Assembly: GCA_014896375.1 (NCBI GenBank)
Contig: JADBKN010000008.1
Location: 1-64,000 of the forward strand
Origin: Bacillota bacterium
GTDB taxonomy: Bacteria > Bacillota > Sulfobacillia > RBS10-35 > Bu92
Direction: 5' to 3'
Length of the DNA: 64,000 nt
Shown here piece by piece: positions 2,008 through 60,962 of this stretch; the stretch's first letter is position 1, and each line of letters begins with the position of its first letter. The translations under genes and the position numbers were made by a program. Below the pieces are notes generated by a model. The model was not told the origin of the DNA, did not search any database, and saw nothing but the letters and a program-made list of their open reading frames with translations.

Positions 2008-2982
2008 TTGCGCCGTCTCCTCGTCTGGATCCTGGCCGCGGCGCTGGTCCTGGCTGTCCCGGCGATCATCGTCCTGATGCTGCGACCTGCCGCTCCGCCC
2101 GCGCCGCCGGAGCCGGTCGTGCTCCTCTACGACGACGCCCGCCGTGCGTTCCTCAAGTTGCCGCTGGAGACCTACCTCGCCGGCGTGGTGGCAGCGGAGA
2201 TGCCGGCCTCCTTCGCGCCGGAGGCGCTCAAGGCGCAGGCCGTCGTGGCGCGGACGTACACGCTGCAGCACCTGCGCGCGTTCGGCGGCGCCGGCTGTGC
2301 CGCGCACCCGCCGGCGGATGTCTGCAGCCTCCCCGAGGAGAGTCAGGCCTGGCTCCCGCAGAGCGCGCTGCGCCAGCGCTGGGGCGCCGCCTTCCGGGCC
2401 AACTGGCGCAAGGTGAACGCGGCCGTTCAGGCCACGCGCGGGCTGGTCGCTCTCTATGGCGGCCAGCCCATCGACGCCGTCTACTTCGCGGCGTCCGGCG
2501 GCCGCACCGAGGACGCGCGTTTTGTCTGGGGACGCGTCGTCCCCTATCTGAAGAGCGTGCCGTCTCCGGGCGAGCGGGATCCCTACGAGGGCGCGGCGGC
2601 GCGCTTCACCTGGCCGGAGCTGGCCCAGCGCCTGCAGCTCGACACCGCGTCCCTGGAAAGACGGCCGCCGCCCGACCGCTTCGCCGTGCTCTCACGTACG
2701 CCGAGCGGGCGGGCGTTCTACGTGCGCGTCGGCGACGAGATCCTCAAGGCCACGGAACTGCGCGACCGCCTCGACCTCCGTTCGACGTGGATCGTCGCTG
2801 AGCGGGCGGATCATCAAGGGTTGACACTTTACACGAAGGGCTGGGGCCACGGGGTGGGTCTCTCGCAATACGGCGCCCAGGCGATGGCGGAGCGCGGCGT
2901 CGACTTCCGCACGATCATCCGCTGGTACTATCAGGGAGTCGAGGTGGCGCCCTGGACTTCCTGGACCGGGACGACGCGGTAA
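2008..2982 (+). CDS. spoIID: Stage II sporulation protein D, lytic transglycosylase
   Basis: SpoIID is the membrane-anchored glycan-strand-cleaving enzyme that works with SpoIIP and SpoIIM to drive engulfment of the forespore. The 324-residue product has one N-terminal membrane helix (about 4-26), the segment LETYLAGVVAAEMP containing the family's catalytic glutamate, ALKAQAVVARTYT, the two-cysteine segment GCAAHPPADVC and the terminal motif GWGHGVGLSQYGAQ. I chose TTG 2008 because GGGGAGG (1994-2000) lies 7 bases upstream; the frame stays open further upstream only through the low-complexity repeat. Its last 52 bases overlap the convergent deaminase gene. It would be expected to be under sigma-E in the mother cell. 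Confidence 0.93.
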   Translation: MRRLLVWILAAALVLAVPAIIVLMLRPAAPPAPPEPVVLLYDDARRAFLKLPLETYLAGVVAAEMPASFAPEALKAQAVVARTYTLQHLRAFGGAGCAAHPPADVCSLPEESQAWLPQSALRQRWGAAFRANWRKVNAAVQATRGLVALYGGQPIDAVYFAASGGRTEDARFVWGRVVPYLKSVPSPGERDPYEGAAARFTWPELAQRLQLDTASLERRPPPDRFAVLSRTPSGRAFYVRVGDEILKATELRDRLDLRSTWIVAERADHQGLTLYTKGWGHGVGLSQYGAQAMAERGVDFRTIIRWYYQGVEVAPWTSWTGTTR

Positions 2983-3431
2983 CCGTGGCCCTGCACCGGG
3001 ACCGCGCGGCAGAGCTCCACCCCGCCCGCGCGCAAGATTGCGGCCGAGTGGGGATCCGGGTACTCGCTGAGGTAGATCACCTTGACCACGCCCGCCTGCA
3101 CGATCGCCTTGGCGCAGTGGACGCAGGGGAAGTCGGTCACCACGAGCGTGCAGCCGACGCTGCTGACGCCGTTGACGGCGCACTGGATGATGGCGTTCAG
3201 CTCCGCATGCACGGCGCGCACGCAGCTTTCGCGGTCGCCGTTGCGCACGAGGATGCAACCCTCGTCCTCGCAGTGCGGCGCGCCGCGCACGGCGCCGTTG
3301 TAGCCCGTGGCCACCACGCGGTGATCCTTGACGAGCACGCACCCGACCTGCCGCCGCGGGCAGGTGGAGCGCGTCGCCGCGAGCTTGGCCATCTCGATGA
3401 AGTACTCGTCCCAAGTGGGCCGCCGCCGCAT
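2931..3431 (-). CDS. dCMP deaminase / ComEB family cytidine deaminase
   Basis: Zinc-dependent deaminase that converts dCMP to dUMP for thymidylate synthesis. The 166-residue product shows the two zinc motifs VHAELNAI (His and catalytic Glu) and PCVHC (two Cys), and begins RPTWDEYFIEMAKLAATRSTC as in the ComEB family, including extra Cys/His residues (HCEDEGC) of the dCMP-type group. ATG 3431 has GGAGGCG just upstream. It is inverted between spoIID and spoIIID, and its 3' end overlaps that of spoIID by 52 bases. In Bacillus spoIIQ occupies this general position. ComEB is normally in a competence operon; here it stands alone. Confidence 0.92.
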   Translation of the reverse strand: MRRRPTWDEYFIEMAKLAATRSTCPRRQVGCVLVKDHRVVATGYNGAVRGAPHCEDEGCILVRNGDRESCVRAVHAELNAIIQCAVNGVSSVGCTLVVTDFPCVHCAKAIVQAGVVKVIYLSEYPDPHSAAILRAGGVELCRAVPVQGHGYRVVPVQEVQGATSTP

Positions 3432-3899
3432 GGTGACGCCTCCTTCTCCCGGTTGCCCGGCGACGGGCGTTGTTGTCGGCCGCGTCATGCTTCGGCGCGG
3501 CGTGCCTCGCCGCGGCCTATTTCGGCACGCCATTCTTCGCCACGTACAGCCGTCTTTCCCGCTCCGCCCCACCCTGCATGAATTCGCCATAACTGGGAAG
3601 GCTATCCCCACGAAGTGGGGGAGTGCCACATGGACGAACGCGAACGAAGGGGCACGGCGCCGGGGGACGCCCCTAGTGAGGTGGCGGGACGCGGAGCGGG
3701 CCAGGGGGTCCGCGGGCCTGCCGTGGACGCAGCCGCCCCCGGTGACGGCGCGGGACCGCGCGCGGGCGCCGCGGCCGGCCGGCCGCGCGACATGCGCCGC
3801 CTGCTCCCAGCACGGCCTTTGCGGATGGGAGGCGGGGCGACCGAATAGCCGGCGGGAGCCATATACTGTACCAGACGGTTGAGCGTCTGTCTGGCGAGG
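3432..3899. other. Gap upstream of spoIIID without a confident gene
   Basis: Contains two short hairpins: CGCGGCG/CGCCGCG (3496-3514, loop TGCCT), which would lie in the 5' leader of the deaminase gene, and CCCCAC/GTGGGG (3606-3620, loop GAA). A 72-codon frame from ATG 3630 to 3848 has GGGGGAG at 3616-3622 but encodes only Gly/Ala/Arg/Pro-rich sequence, so I do not call it. No spoIIQ or its remnant was seen. Confidence 0.45.
3844..3889 (+). promoter_or_regulatory. Possible sigma-E/sigma-K type promoter and start-site hairpin for spoIIID
   Basis: CATATACT at 3860-3867 fits the -10 pattern CATAYANT of sporulation sigma-E/K, with a weak -35 candidate (GAATAG, about 3843-3848) 11-13 bases upstream. 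A 6-bp hairpin CAGACG/CGTCTG (3872-3877 and 3884-3889) falls where transcription would start. spoIIID is a sigma-E gene in Bacillus, so the position is right, but the -35 match is poor. Confidence 0.35.
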
Positions 3900-4183
3900 A
3901 TGTGGCGAGGGGGCGAGGCAGTTCATGATTACATCAAGGAGCACGGGCGGTTCAGATCCGTTACCTCGTAAAGAAAAGCGCCAGACCGTCCGCGCCGTCG
4001 CCAAAGCGTTCGGCGTCTCCAAACACCGTTCACAAGGACCTCACGCAGGAACGGCTCCCCGAAATCGACGCCGAGCTGGCCCGACAGGTGAAGGAAGTAC
4101 CGAATACCACAAGGCGATCCGACACCTGCGGGGCGGAGAAGGCGACCCGCAACAAATATCGCCGCGACGGAACAGGCGCCTGA
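3900..4183 (+). pseudogene. spoIIID: spoIIID, sporulation transcription factor, broken by several frame changes
   Basis: SpoIIID is the small HTH factor that reshapes mother-cell sigma-E transcription. Recognisable SpoIIID blocks follow each other in the correct order but in different frames: HDYIKEHG (from 3924), RYLVKK (from 3959), QTVRAVAKAFGVSK (3982-4023), TVHKDLTQERLPEIDAELAR continuing QVKEV (4025-4099), EYHKAIRHLRGGE (4102-4140), then ATRNKYRRDGTGA and a stop at 4181-4183. At least five small insertions or deletions are needed to join them. The expected GTG/ATG start before HDY reads GTT (3921); an ATG at 3900 is in the same frame. The residues between the breaks are well conserved, so the damage is either very recent or an error in the sequence. 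mbl follows as in Bacillus. Confidence 0.85.
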
Positions 4184-4193
4184 AGCCTCGCCC

Positions 4194-4222
4194 TGGCCAT
4201 CGACACCCTCATCCGTTATACT
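4194..4222 (+). promoter_or_regulatory. Candidate promoter of mbl
   Basis: TATACT at 4217-4222 is a good -10 for the housekeeping sigma factor, lying in a locally AT-rich stretch (CGTTATACTAATT) 42 bases before the start codon. The -35 at 17-bp spacing (TGGCCA, 4194-4199) is weak. Confidence 0.5.
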
Positions 4223-4264
4223 AATTGGAAGCGGAGACCCCCGCCGCCCGGGAAGGGGAGAGCC

Positions 4265-5278
4265 GTGTTCCCGATGACGCGCGACATCGGCGTCGACCTC
4301 GGCACCGCGAACACGCTCGTCCATGTGCAGGGCCGCGGCATCGTGATCCGGGAGCCCTCAGTGGTCGCGCTCGACCGCGACACGCACCGTGTCCTGGCCG
4401 TGGGAGCGGAGGCCCAGCGCATGGTCGGCCGCACGCCCGGGCACATCGTGGCCGTGCGGCCGCTGCGGGACGGCGTGATCGCGGACTACGCCGCCACCCA
4501 GGCGATGTTGCGCCACTTCCTCCAGCTCGCGGCCGGCCGCCGGCCGCTCGTGCGCCCCCGCGTCATGGTCTGCGTGCCCTCCGGCGTGACGTCCGTGGAG
4601 CGGCGGGCGGTGGTGGAGTGCGCGCTGGAGGCCGGCGCGCGGCGCGCCTATCTCATCGAGGAGCCGCTGGCGGCCGCCCTGGGGGCGGGACTGCCGATCG
4701 ACGAGCCGCGCGGGTGCATGGTCGTCGACATCGGCGGCGGGACGAGCGACGTCGCCGTGCTCTCCCTGGGCGGCATCGTGACGAGCCAGTCGCTGCGGCT
4801 GGGCGGAGATCGCCTGGACGAGGCCATCGTCCGCCACATCAAGCGGGAGTGGAACCTCTTGATCGGCGAGCGCACGGCGGAAGAGGTGAAGATCCGCATC
4901 GGCACGGTGGATCCTGAGGAGAACCGCGGCACGATGGAAGTCCGCGGACGCGACGTGGTCACCGGGCTGCCGAAGGTGATCGAGATCCGCAGCGCCGACG
5001 CCTGCCGCGCGATGCAGGAGCCGATCGCGGAGCTCGTCGCCATGATCCGCCAGGTGCTGGAGCGCATGCCGCCGGAGCTGGCGGCCGACATCTTTGAGTC
5101 CGGCGTCGTGCTCACCGGGGGCGGTGCGCTGCTCAGCGGACTCGACCGCATGCTGGCGGCGGACCTCGGCGTGCCGGTGATCGTCGCCGAGGATCCGCTC
5201 TCTTGCGTGGCGAAGGGGACGGGTGTCGCGCTGGCGCGGCTGGGGCACCTGGACCACCTGTTGCAGTCCGGCCCGTGA
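4265..5278 (+). CDS. mbl: Rod-shape determining actin homolog, Mbl/MreB family
   Basis: Bacterial actin that polymerises on the inner membrane face and guides cylindrical wall synthesis. The 337-residue product has the phosphate-1 loop VDLGTANT near the N-terminus, the phosphate-2 loop VVDIGGGTSDVAVLSLGGIV and the adenosine motif VVLTGGGALLSG. Position after spoIIID points to Mbl and not MreB. GGAAGGGGAG (4251-4260) could serve GTG 4265 (close, 4 bases) or ATG 4274 (13 bases); I kept the longer form. In Bacillus the flhO-flhP pair follows, as here. Which of the three actin paralogues it is rests on context only. Confidence 0.92.
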   Translation: MFPMTRDIGVDLGTANTLVHVQGRGIVIREPSVVALDRDTHRVLAVGAEAQRMVGRTPGHIVAVRPLRDGVIADYAATQAMLRHFLQLAAGRRPLVRPRVMVCVPSGVTSVERRAVVECALEAGARRAYLIEEPLAAALGAGLPIDEPRGCMVVDIGGGTSDVAVLSLGGIVTSQSLRLGGDRLDEAIVRHIKREWNLLIGERTAEEVKIRIGTVDPEENRGTMEVRGRDVVTGLPKVIEIRSADACRAMQEPIAELVAMIRQVLERMPPELAADIFESGVVLTGGGALLSGLDRMLAADLGVPVIVAEDPLSCVAKGTGVALARLGHLDHLLQSGP

Positions 5279-53473: not shown

Positions 53474-54772
53474 GTGGTGGCGGCGGTGATCGTCACGTCG
53501 GGGACCGTCTGGGGTGTGCTGCGCCGCCCACGTGGGCTGGGGCCGGGGGCCGTGGCCTGGCTGGGCGCGGCGCTCATGCTCTCGCTGGGGCTCGTGCGGC
53601 CGGCGGACGTCGTCGCGGTGTTCCGTCTCACGTGGGACGCCACGCTCGCGCTCATCGGCATGGTTCTGACGGCGGAGATCCTCGATCAAGCCCGCTTCTT
53701 CCGCGCGGGCGCGCTCTTTGTGGCGCGCGCCGCGCGCGGGCGGCCGGCGGCGTTGTTTTTCGGGCTCACGCTTCTCACGGCGGCGGTGGCGGCGTTTTTC
53801 ACCAACGATGCGGCCGTGCTGATCCTCACGCCGATCGCCTGCGAGCTGGCGGCGGCTTTCGGGTGGAGCGCGGCCCAGGCGCTGCCGCTCCTCTTCGCCG
53901 TGGGGTTCGTGGCGGACACGTTCAGCCTGCCGTTCACGACGAGCAACCTTGTGAACATCATGAGCGCGGACGCCGCCAGACTGCCGTTCGGAGCGTATGC
54001 GCGGGCGATGGCCGTGCCGAGCGCCGTGAGCCTCGCGGTTTCGCTGGCGGTGCTCTGGTGGCGCTTCGGCGGGAGGTCGGGGCACGCGCGCCCATTTGCG
54101 CCGGGCGCCGGCGTCCCGCTCCCCCCGTTACCGGCGCCGGGCGCAGCGGTGCGCGACCGCGTGCTGGTGGCGGCAGGCGCGGTGGTGCTGATCCTTGAGA
54201 TGGTGTGCCTCTTCTGGGCGTCGCGCCACCGCGTGCCGACGGCGGCGATCGTCGGCGGCGGTGCCCTGCTCCTCGCCCTCCTCGCCGCTTGGCGCCCGGG
54301 GGTCAGCGTACGCGGGGCGCTTCTACGTGCGCCCTGGCAGGTAATCTTCTTCGCCGCGGGGATGTTTCTCGTCGTCGATGGGCTCGGCCGCGCCGGATGG
54401 GCGCAGCTCTGGGCACGCAACCTGGAGATCTGGGCCGCTCACCCGTAGGGGGCCATCGCCGTTCAGGGCGCAGTGGCGGGGGCCCTCGCCTCGGTGGGCA
54501 ACAACCTACCGGCCACCATGCTCGGCCTTCTGGGCATCGGCGCCGCGCATGTGCCTCCGGATCTGCGGGAGGGCCTCGTCCTCGCCAACGTCCTGGGCAA
54601 CGACATCGGTCCCAAGTTGACGCCGATCGGCTCTTTGGCCACGTTGCTTTGGCTGGGGATCCTGGAGCGGCGCGGTTACCGCGTCACGGGGAAGGAGTAC
54701 CTGGCGATGGGCCTCCTTCTGACGCCGCCGGTGCTGGCGGCGGCGCTGGCGGCGCTGGCCGTCCTACGGTAA
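53474..54772 (+). pseudogene. ArsB/NhaD-type anion permease with an in-frame TAG
   Basis: Reads as one 432-residue permease with about eleven membrane helices, but codon 325 is TAG (54446-54448). The frame goes on without loss after it: GAVAGALASVGNNLPATMLG and NDIGPKLTPIGSLATLLWLG are typical ArsB/citrate-permease blocks (SNN-P and GANLTPIGS-like). The N-terminal half has FFTNDAAVLILTPIACELAA. Arsenite efflux is the likely ancestral role, but no arsR or arsC is near. GTG 53474 lies three bases after uvrA. Single-base nonsense or sequencing error. Confidence 0.85.
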
Positions 54773-54842
54773 CGGCCGTCCTGCGGTGACGGCCCGTGCT
54801 GCGGTGAAGGCCGCGCTGCGGTCACGGCCGTCCTGCGGTCAC
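54757..54842 (+). repeat. Tandem 17-bp repeat, five units
   Basis: Units of GGCCGTCCTGCGGTCAC: 54757-54773, 54774-54790, 54791-54808 (18 bp), 54809-54825, 54826-54842, with a decayed sixth after that. The first unit is the last codons and stop of the arsB-like gene (GGCCGTCCTACGGTAAC), so the array looks like a copy-out of the 3' end of that gene. Confidence 0.85.
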
Positions 54843-55308
54843 GGCGGCGCGATGCGCCCCCGCACCTGCTTCGGCCAGCCGATGACCTTCGAGGGGCGCG
54901 TCATCGATCGCGGTAGGCCGGGGACCGCGGCCGGCCGGCACCCCGGGTAGCCCGGGACCGGGGTAAGCGGGGACCGTGTCGCCGGGTGGGGCTCGGTGTG
55001 GCTCGGTGCTAGGCGCGGCCCCTTTAGCCAAGATCGTTGGCCTATTTCCAAAAAACCGCTGGCATCGGCCTCGATAAGCCAAAAACGTTGGCCTCATTCT
55101 TGGGAAATGGCGCGTAAGGCCGGGAAATAAGAAATTAGGCCAACGAGTTTGGCTTATTTGGGCCCGGGGAAGCCGGTACGCGAAAATAGACCAACGTTTT
55201 TGGCTTATCGGTGGACGCCGATGCCGGGCGGGACCCGGGGCCACTGCCGCGCACACACGTCTGCCATTCGCCGCTGCCGTGCGCCGTCCCTACCCATCGC
55301 TCGTTCGC
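54773..55308. other. Gene-free stretch after the arsB-like gene
   Basis: 536 bases. Holds the tandem 17-bp array (to 54842), then GC-rich sequence with CCCGGG-type words (54930-54990), then the four-copy dyad repeat (55025-55209), which is markedly richer in A and T. No protein-coding frame is credible on either strand. Confidence 0.7.
55025..55209. repeat. Four copies of a ~22-bp dyad element in inverted pairs
   Basis: Consensus AGGCCAACGNNNTTGGCTTATC. Minus-strand copies at 55025-55049 and 55073-55094; plus-strand copies at 55137-55159 and 55188-55209. Copies two and four share a perfect 19-bp inverted repeat, CCAACGTTTTTGGCTTATC. Each unit has an inner GCCAA/TTGGC dyad. Copies one and three differ at the NNN and flanks. 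Could be operators, the ends of a small MITE-like element, or a REP-like family. No known family recognised. Confidence 0.8.
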
Positions 55309-55505
55309 TCACGCCGGCCGGAACGTGGCCATGGCGCCGCGGATGCGCTGCGTCTCCTTATAGATGCAGCGGTTCATGACGACGTCCATCCCCGCCTCCG
55401 AGGCGAGCCGCGCCGCCTCTGGGCTCACGACGCCCGCCTGCATCCAGAAGATGCGCACGCCCTTCTTCCCGGGCCCGCGCCGGGCCTGCGCCCACTCTAG
55501 CGCTG
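55309..55505 (-). pseudogene. CoA-binding domain protein, 3' remnant
   Basis: About 55 residues on the minus strand match the C-terminus of YccU-type CoA-binding proteins: KKGVRIFWMQAGVVSPEAAR, EAGMDVVMNRCIYKE. Upstream, the frame runs into the antisense of the DedA-LmbE gene, so start and most of the domain are gone. Probably the stump of a gene cut off by rearrangement. Confidence 0.6.
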
Positions 55506-58384: not shown

Positions 58385-59394
58385 CCGTGCCCCCCTCCCG
58401 AGCGCGGCCGCTCCACGAGCGCCTTCCAGACAGTATAGGGCAGGCGCGGCACGTAATAGCCAAAGAAGCCGGCCGCCGCGCGCCAGGCGCGCGGCCGCGG
58501 CGCCGGCCGCGCGTCTCCCGCCGGCGCGCCGCGATAGGCCGCGTCGATGCGGCGGTAGGCCGCTTCCACGCCGCCCTCGGCCGCCCAGCGGCGCACCGCG
58601 TCCGCCGGCGGCGCGGCGAAGAGCGCCTCCGGCAGGGTCACGATCTCCGAGAGCTCCAGGAAGAGCGGCCGCACGTGCGTCCCGTAGCCCTCGGCCGCCA
58701 CGGCGGCCCGCAATCGATTATAGCGGTCGCGGTCGAGCGGCCAGCGGCGGCCGCTGCCGAGCACGGCCGAGACGGCCTTGAGCACCAGCGCGAGCCGCTC
58801 CGTGTCCCAGACCGGGTCGAAGCAGCGGATTTCGACGGTCGGCAGCCGGTAAGGGAGGATGAGGTCCTGGAAGCGGAAGCGCGGGTCCTCCCGCAGCGGC
58901 CCGATGGCGTAGGAGCGCGCGAAGCGGAAGGACGGGCGCGGGCGCCCGCCCTCCTCGTACGGCGCGTTGAGGAAGGCGCAGGCGAAGAGCGGCAGGAAGT
59001 GGGCGACGGCCGCGTACGCGGCCGCGAGGTCGTCCACGCCGCCGATGTGCACGTGCAGGCCGCAGGTGTTCGTCCGCGCCTCAAGGCCCATGAGGCTGCC
59101 CATGGGCACGATGTACGCGTCGGCCACGGCCGCCAGCCGGCGCCGCTGCTCAAGGAGCGCCGCCACGGCCGCTTCCGCGCCGCGGCGCGGGGGCGTGGAG
59201 AGCTCCACGCCGCTCATCACGGCGCGGCGCAGGTCGGCGCCGCGGGCGAAGTTGGAGGCGCTGCGCGTGTAGTAGTAGCGGGGGTCCTCCCAGAGAAGGC
59301 GCGCGAGCGGCCAGAGCGCGTCCAGCGCCGGGCGCACCGGGTAGGTGAGGAAGACCTCCTCCTCGATGCCGTAAAGGGGCTCGTCCATGAGCAC
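58381..59394 (-). CDS. GCS2-type carboxylate-amine ligase (YbdK-like)
   Basis: 337 residues of the glutamate-cysteine ligase family 2: GIEEEVFLTYP at the start, GVELSTPPRRG, TCGLHVHIGGVDD and YRLPTVEIRCFDPVWDTER. Such enzymes join an amino acid to a carboxylate using ATP; gamma-glutamyl-cysteine synthesis or a peptide-like side product are both possible. ATG 59394 or 59388. First of a coupled operon with psd and DedA-LmbE, which suggests that the product modifies lipids or a sugar thiol. Substrate unknown. Confidence 0.88.
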   Translation of the reverse strand: MLMDEPLYGIEEEVFLTYPVRPALDALWPLARLLWEDPRYYYTRSASNFARGADLRRAVMSGVELSTPPRRGAEAAVAALLEQRRRLAAVADAYIVPMGSLMGLEARTNTCGLHVHIGGVDDLAAAYAAVAHFLPLFACAFLNAPYEEGGRPRPSFRFARSYAIGPLREDPRFRFQDLILPYRLPTVEIRCFDPVWDTERLALVLKAVSAVLGSGRRWPLDRDRYNRLRAAVAAEGYGTHVRPLFLELSEIVTLPEALFAAPPADAVRRWAAEGGVEAAYRRIDAAYRGAPAGDARPAPRPRAWRAAAGFFGYYVPRLPYTVWKALVERPRSGGGHG

Positions 59395-59444
59395 AGTATG
59401 GCACGGACTCCCAAGGGGAAGACTTCGGCGCGGAGGGACGCGCC

Positions 59445-60962
59445 ATGCCGAACACCACGACGCCGTTCGTCGACGGTCACAGGATCACGTCCGCCGCCTC
59501 CATCGACAACTATACGCGTTACATCACAACGGAGCTGGAGACGAACGTCCGCTACCTGGACGAGCTGCTCGGCGTGGGGAAGACGTTCGACGTGCTGAGC
59601 CAGCCGTACACCTTCGGGGGGCGGCGCATGCACGTCTACGTCGTCAACGGCTTCTTCGACGCCCGCACGGTGATGCAGATGCTGGCCGAGCTGGCCGTGC
59701 TCAACGAGGGCGCCCTGGACGAGGACGCGCTCGACAAGATCACGCACCAGCGCATCACGCTGCCGTCGATCACCGTCGTCCGCACGCTGGACGAGTTCGT
59801 GACCATGGTGCTGTCCGGCACGGTCGGCATCCTCATCGAGGGCGTGAGCCGGGGCCTCGTCATCGACGCGCGCGTCTACCCGGCCCGGCTGCCCAACGTG
59901 CCGGAGACGGAGAAGGTGGTGCTGGGCCCGCACGACGGCTTCGTCGAGACGCTTCTTTACAACACGACCCTCCTCCGCCGCCGGCTGCGCGATCCGCGCC
60001 TGCGCTGCGAGATCGTGCACGTGGGCCGGCACTCGCATACGGACGTCGCCATCTGTTACCTGGAAGGCGTCGCCGACCCGCGCATGGTGGAGGACGTGCG
60101 GCGCCGGCTGCAGAACGCGACGGTGCGCAACATCTCCATGTCGGAGCGCTCCGTGGCGACGCTCCTCAGCGACCACCCCTGGAACCCCCTGCCCACCGTG
60201 CGCTTCACCGAGCGCGCCGACATGGCGGCGGCGCAGGTGGCGGAGGGGCGCATCCTCGTCGTCGTGGACACGACGCCGCAGGCGATCATCGTGCCGGCGC
60301 CGTTCTTCGCGCACGTGCCGCACCCGGAGGACTTCCACATCGGCGCGCCGGCCGGCACCTACCTCCGCTGGATCATCCTCATGGCGACGGTGATGTCCGT
60401 CTTCCTGCCGGCGCTGTGGCTCCTGGCCGCGACGGAGCCCAGCCTCCTGCCGAAGAGCCTGAAGTTCGTGGGTCCGCGCCAGCCGCCCACGGGCATGTCG
60501 CTCGCCACGCAGTTCATCGTGGCCGAACTCGGCATCGAGGTCGTGCGGCGCGCCATCCTCAACACGCCCTCCTCAGTGGCCTCCGCCATGTCGATCTTCG
60601 GCGCCGTGATCCTGGGGGACGCGCTCTTCAAGACAGGGCTCTTCCTGCCGGAGGTGATCATCTACCTGGGCGTGGCGACCGTCTTCACCTTCGCCATCTC
60701 CTCCGTGGAGATGATGATCGTGGCGCGCCTCTTCCGGCTCTCCCTGCTGCTCTCGGTGGCGTTCTTCAAGCTGCCGGGCCTCATCCTCGCCACCCTGGCC
60801 TTCTTCGTGCTGGCCCTGGCCACGCGCTCCCTGGGAGTGCCCTACCTGTGGCCGCTCGTGCCCTTCAACTGGTCGGCGTTCAAGTCGATCTTCATCGTCT
60901 CTCCCGTCACCTCGGACATGGCCTCCTCGGGACCGGTGACGCGCCCCGGGACGCCGAGTTGA
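59445..60962 (+). CDS. spoVAF: Spore germination protein, SpoVAF/GerA family
   Basis: 505 residues. N-terminal soluble domain (about 1-300) with ITTELETNVRYLDELLGVGK and TLVSGTVGILIEG-like core, then five or so membrane helices with PTGMSLATQFIVAELGIEVV, LNTPSSVASAMSIFGAVILG and LVPFNWSAFKSIF, the SpoVAF signature region. GerA-family A-type subunits act at the spore inner membrane in germinant response; SpoVAF helps signal to the SpoVA channel. ATG 59445 follows GGAGG. No spoVA neighbours here. The CorA gene is coupled downstream. Confidence 0.9.
   Translation: MPNTTTPFVDGHRITSAASIDNYTRYITTELETNVRYLDELLGVGKTFDVLSQPYTFGGRRMHVYVVNGFFDARTVMQMLAELAVLNEGALDEDALDKITHQRITLPSITVVRTLDEFVTMVLSGTVGILIEGVSRGLVIDARVYPARLPNVPETEKVVLGPHDGFVETLLYNTTLLRRRLRDPRLRCEIVHVGRHSHTDVAICYLEGVADPRMVEDVRRRLQNATVRNISMSERSVATLLSDHPWNPLPTVRFTERADMAAAQVAEGRILVVVDTTPQAIIVPAPFFAHVPHPEDFHIGAPAGTYLRWIILMATVMSVFLPALWLLAATEPSLLPKSLKFVGPRQPPTGMSLATQFIVAELGIEVVRRAILNTPSSVASAMSIFGAVILGDALFKTGLFLPEVIIYLGVATVFTFAISSVEMMIVARLFRLSLLLSVAFFKLPGLILATLAFFVLALATRSLGVPYLWPLVPFNWSAFKSIFIVSPVTSDMASSGPVTRPGTPS

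Follow-up and report, generated by a model that had tools for sequence, protein, structure and literature searches.

A Bacillales-type spoIIID reading broken by frame changes upstream of mbl in a Sulfobacillia genome, possibly a local assembly or sequence fault

SpoIIID is a mother-cell regulator under sigma-E control. The window, that is the whole stretch of 64,000 nucleotides analyzed here (contig JADBKN010000008.1, positions 1 to 64,000, assembly GCA_014896375.1), contains a broken reading of its gene between a truncated spoIIQ and an intact mbl. The features used in this study are listed below; G001 is the one genome of the same genus, and all of the SpoIIID blocks were read directly from the DNA.

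1939-2982, + strand: spoIID, intact and native
2931-3431, − strand: dCMP/cytidine deaminase family gene, intact and native
3631-3848, + strand: native spoIIQ remnant (M23/LytM-type), identified by comparing its open reading frame with that of G001 spoIIQ
3860-3876, + strand: CATATACTGTACCAGAC, a sigma-E-like −10 element about 60 bp upstream of the spoIIID remnant
3921-4183, + strand: Bacillales-type spoIIID reading with five frame changes, two in-frame length changes and GTT at the start position
3921-3941, + strand: SpoIIID block VHDYIKE
3953-3976, + strand: SpoIIID block QIRYLVKK
3985-4023, + strand: SpoIIID block TVRAVAKAFGVSK
4025-4045, + strand: SpoIIID block TVHKDLT
4049-4099, + strand: SpoIIID block ERLPEIDAELARQVKEV
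4102-4140, + strand: SpoIIID block EYHKAIRHLRGGE
4142-4171, + strand: SpoIIID block ATRNKYRRDG
4265-5278, + strand: mbl/mreB-type gene, intact and native, 81% DNA identity to G001
59391-60956: GerA/SpoVAF-family gene, open frame

Three-frame translation of positions 3881-4260 showed that the order of the SpoIIID protein is kept across the changing frames. The frame changes lie between 3941 and 3953, 3976 and 3985, 4023 and 4025, 4099 and 4102, and 4140 and 4142; those within 3941-3985 are placed with an uncertainty of several bases. In addition, one residue is lost near 3958 and one codon is added at about 4046-4048, giving a total of seven length changes in about 250 bp. The start position is occupied by GTT (3921-3923), and the in-frame TGA is at 4181-4183. 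In a frame-tolerant alignment with Bacillus subtilis SpoIIID, 55 of the 79 aligned codons gave identities, and length differences of two, one and three bases fell at the sites proposed by the initial annotation. The alignment score was 267, compared with a maximum of 58 for 150 shuffles of the same bases and 46 for 79 other stretches of the window. The initial annotation had described SpoIIID blocks in order with a changed frame at each step, five frame-change sites and a GTT in place of the start codon; direct reading and the alignment led to the same order of blocks, the same sites and the same triplet, and added the two in-frame length changes, which were absent from its list. It had seen neither the truncated spoIIQ just upstream nor the Bacillales type of the remnant described below.

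Conservation of residues across frames is the one point favoring expression of this reading by several programmed frameshifts or other recoding. Such a mechanism would have to cope with five frame changes within 80 codons, and with the additional codon and the missing residue as well, and we know of no case of SpoIIID made through several programmed frameshifts. A search for structured RNA gave no RNA family match. We give this explanation next to no chance.

Membership in the SpoIIID family was examined with TIGR02844, a functional equivalog for SpoIIID with a cut-off of 111.5 bits. Read in single frames, the remnant scored 36.1 and 26.4 bits, both below the cut-off; a composite of the blocks, with unknown positions masked, scored 117.4 bits and matched 2L0K, the B. 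subtilis SpoIIID structure, with an E value of 2.4e-33. The helix-turn-helix residues and the RHLRGG segment were retained, as were 20 of the 20 residues that are invariant in 77 references, and where it deviates at 90%-conserved positions, twice in all, it has the Bacillales state. The remnant, lying upstream of mbl, resembles SpoIIID block by block over the whole 80-residue domain, but differs from it in having no single coding frame, no start codon where one is expected, and an additional codon within the conserved KDLT-ERLP stretch.

The element CATATACTGTACCAGAC was identical at 15 of 17 positions to the region upstream of Paenibacillus spoIIID and at 13 of 17 in two class relatives; none of 2000 shuffles reached 14 matches. 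In other spoIIID genes a similar −10-like element is located 38-43 bp upstream, rather than the 60 bp or so found here; the remnant has neither a start codon at the start position nor a −10-like element at the usual distance. Because class relatives share part of the element, the promoter likeness was rejected as proof of a Bacillales origin. A CATATA-TGTACCA-like element recurs 38-43 bp before spoIIID in Paenibacillus (L201) and in L029 and L030. These groups are far apart, and the element is a candidate for a conserved, extended sigma-E −10 region.

The spoIIQ remnant is in frame with the G001 protein for about 58 codons (MDERER...GRPRDMRRLLP; 3631 to about 3805) and diverges after that point, and the LytM domain is absent; the DNA at 3555-3646 matches G001 at 84%. 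No spoIIQ orthologue was found elsewhere in the genome, where the best matches were unrelated M23 proteins at 32-40%. Besides the 81% at mbl, DNA identity between G001 and the window was 87% over murA and 84% over spoIID-deaminase, and spoIIID did not align. The order in G001 is deaminase, spoIIQ-like M23 gene, glycosyltransferase, small membrane protein, spoIIID and mbl. In most other relatives spoIIQ and spoIIID are only 60-660 bp apart; therefore the window shows the common order, and it is G001 that has gained the glycosyltransferase by insertion. That spacing, together with the presence of the extra glycosyltransferase on contig C23 of this assembly, led us to reject a 4-kb deletion relative to G001. 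The spoIIID remnant thus occupies the same slot between spoIIQ and mbl as in most relatives, with spoIIQ truncated. Contig C23 ends within the 3' end of the glycosyltransferase gene, the end that abuts spoIIQ in G001. On C23:1-2567 (L247) the 5' neighbor of the glycosyltransferase gene is an acyl-CoA dehydrogenase-like cluster and not spoIIID.

The affinity of the remnant was determined with a tree of 109 SpoIIID sequences in which its ambiguous positions were masked. The remnant was sister to the B. subtilis, Priestia and Paenibacillus proteins with support of 99/92, and G001 SpoIIID grouped with same-order relatives. Placing the remnant with its native relatives cost 22-28 log-likelihood units, a placement that the AU test on 82 columns did not reject (p 0.16 and 0.14). 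Five residues (H, K, L, H and I) were common to the remnant, B. subtilis, Priestia and Paenibacillus and were present in none of 74 other proteins. When 154 class genomes were queried with the remnant (153 besides this one), the best class match had no more than 58% identity, whereas Bacillales references matched at about 74%, and this makes the remnant look out of place; G001 and the other class genomes with a match carry a different SpoIIID version. The GC3 of its readable codons was 0.72. Long genes of the window mostly stand at about 0.93, and spoIIID in seven relatives falls within 0.84-0.96. Judged by these sequence characters, the remnant is Bacillales-type and probably not the lineage's own gene. 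No near-identical Bacillales donor emerged from the collections covered: the genome groups within reach gave no close match, and among plasmids and phages the matches were limited to Priestia and Paenibacillus, at 68-69%.

A second, intact spoIIID, the search for which the initial annotation had proposed as a check, was not found anywhere in the assembly. Matches of 316 amino acids on contigs C7 and C47 were set aside as probably a different protein whose DNA-binding domain is similar, as judged by length and score. Among the 61 genomes of a first set, 52 had a spoIIID match, including the broken one of this genome, and the matches in relatives were open frames. The class itself is probably GC-rich and made up of spore formers resembling Bacillota. 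Both sampled species of genera g5 (G005 and G008), g17 (G019 and G044) and g39 (G041 and G057) were without a spoIIID match; these genera may represent lineages in which sporulation has been lost.

Other sporulation genes were sought with B. subtilis sequences, which serve only as probes. Open frames were found for Spo0A, SpoIVA, sigma-E, a sigma-K-like factor, a sigma-F-like factor, SpoIVB, SpoVAD, SpoIIIAA, SpoIIIAH, small acid-soluble proteins and a GerA-family gene. The sigG gene was not found in the assembly, in which the contig carrying sigE stops before the place of sigG in G001. The suggestion that the organism lost the regulator while keeping spoIID, mbl and spoVAF stood in its second half, in that spoIID, mbl and the GerA/SpoVAF-family gene are intact; loss of the regulator is at most a possibility, because an intact spoIIID could sit in a gap of the 93% complete assembly. 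A long-standing loss of sporulation is disfavored, since the time needed for seven indels in 250 bp should also have damaged other sporulation genes.

Ordinary vertical decay of the lineage's own spoIIID into a pseudogene would fit the locus and the gene order, which are those of relatives, and the damage to spoIIQ as well. It would not account for the affinity with Bacillales instead of the genus type, for the other sporulation genes being open, or for seven length changes in about 250 bp that left all 20 invariant residues in place; an ordinary pseudogene would be expected to have lost some of these residues, with comparable decay in the tested sporulation genes. The density of indels, already described as odd for ordinary decay, is indeed so, and we give this explanation a small chance.

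The assembly consists of 2.19 Mb in 65 contigs and is 93.5% complete and 2% contaminated. In about 400 kb of it, only about seven frame changes were not explained by gene boundaries, two of them being the same duplicated site, and none were clustered as in the spoIIID remnant. Frame changes elsewhere in the window fell at gene boundaries, and the long non-coding gaps of C7 contained small intact genes and a tRNA, with no broken genes. General poor sequence quality was therefore rejected, and bad sequencing as the initial annotation had put it, if taken generally, does not hold. A stretch of 57,325 bp occurs twice with 100% identity in different contexts, at C7:48090-105414 and, inverted, at C47:156456-213780. 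The C7 copy looks native on both flanks; the C47 copy interrupts other sequence, is flanked by a short GGCGG repeat and adjoins rRNA-spacer-like sequence. The two copies reflect either a duplication that is very recent or a fault of the assembly.

The reading that we prefer, with a probability that we judge to be just short of even, is that positions 3805-4235 or so are a local assembly or sequence fault holding foreign, uncorrected DNA. Some 0.4 kb of foreign DNA of the Bacillales spoIIID type, its indels left uncorrected, would have been placed between the true start of the native spoIIQ and the native mbl, and the organism's own spoIIQ and spoIIID would be in sequence that the assembly failed to resolve; we infer that the real sequence of the cell differs from this patch. 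Retention of the 20 residues invariant across 77 references despite seven length changes is an indel-dominated pattern typical of uncorrected reads, and the remnant looks out of place, with at most 58% identity among the 153 other class members compared with about 74% for Bacillales. The remaining tested sporulation genes, which neutral decay at seven indels per 250 bp would have struck, are open. The break of C23 inside the glycosyltransferase gene, the end of which adjoins spoIIQ in G001, indicates that the assembly was not resolved around a gene linked to the locus, and the 57,325-bp exact duplication in two contexts is a possible assembly problem. Against a fault, a foreign gene in the right slot and orientation is not readily made by an accidental chimera, about 400 kb contained no further indel-ridden patch, and a near-identical donor sequence was not found.

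The slot and orientation beside the native mbl are instead what a real, recently broken import would produce, an explanation that we consider possible but tentative. A Bacillales-type fragment would have recombined in through an anchor in conserved sequence near mbl, with an illegitimate join within spoIIQ at its other end, replacing native spoIIID and the end of native spoIIQ; the truncated spoIIQ is expected from such a one-sided join. Homology-facilitated illegitimate recombination during natural transformation would put a foreign orthologue in a native slot and truncate its neighbor, and by analogy the locus may be likened to such an event. The tree position with Bacillales (99/92), the five diagnostic residues, the GC3 of 0.72 and the otherwise clean contig are also in its favor. 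A burst of indels would then have followed, either since functional copies exist elsewhere or since sporulation was very recently lost. Seven length changes without the loss of an invariant residue would, however, require an indel-biased spectrum: by a Poisson estimate made by hand from residue counts, the chance of no change at the 20 invariant codons is about 0.28, 0.08, 0.02 and 0.002 at 1, 2, 3 and 5 substitutions per indel, respectively. The tested sporulation genes elsewhere are undamaged, and the AU test leaves a native placement formally unrejected (p 0.14-0.16). That the native spoIIQ-spoIIID segment was genuinely and very recently replaced by a piece of Bacillales spoIIID, and this piece then broken in a burst of indels alone, we hold to be slightly more doubtful still.

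In a third arrangement only the indels would be errors, and an intact, functional Bacillales-type spoIIID would truly be present with spoIIQ truncated or replaced. The constrained appearance of the residues and the intact sporulation genes elsewhere agree with this, but both an import and local errors are required and the truncated spoIIQ is left to explain; its chance appears very small. The local fault agrees with damage by indels alone and with a pathway that is otherwise intact, whereas an import agrees with the slot and orientation. Because neutral decay of sporulation would have damaged other genes, we place the fault slightly ahead.

It has been documented before that sporulation genes can appear broken by a frameshift or a possible sequencing error. 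Such causes were given for core sporulation genes noted as missing, one of which is spoIIID (Galperin et al. 2012, PMC3533761), and in Lysinibacillus sphaericus C3-41 frameshifts were found in spoIVA, spoIVB and spoIVFB, where the sequence was judged insufficiently reliable (PMC3533761). The present case differs: a single gene of 250 bp and of foreign type carries five or more frame changes, with no similar damage found elsewhere in about 400 kb. If the patch is an artefact, a clean-looking contig can hold a short foreign patch that mimics the loss of a core developmental gene, which would be a caution for surveys in which loss of sporulation is read from assemblies. If it is real, a core sporulation regulator would have been replaced from a taxonomically remote source and then disrupted before the remaining pathway decayed. 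An import would leave a strain with a nearly whole set of sporulation genes but without a central regulator and an engulfment protein, and would thus be either a snapshot of sporulation loss or an instance of sporulation without SpoIIID.

Elsewhere in the window, positions 54764-55320 are non-coding and contain direct and inverted repeats of 23-73 nt around GGCCAACG-type motifs.
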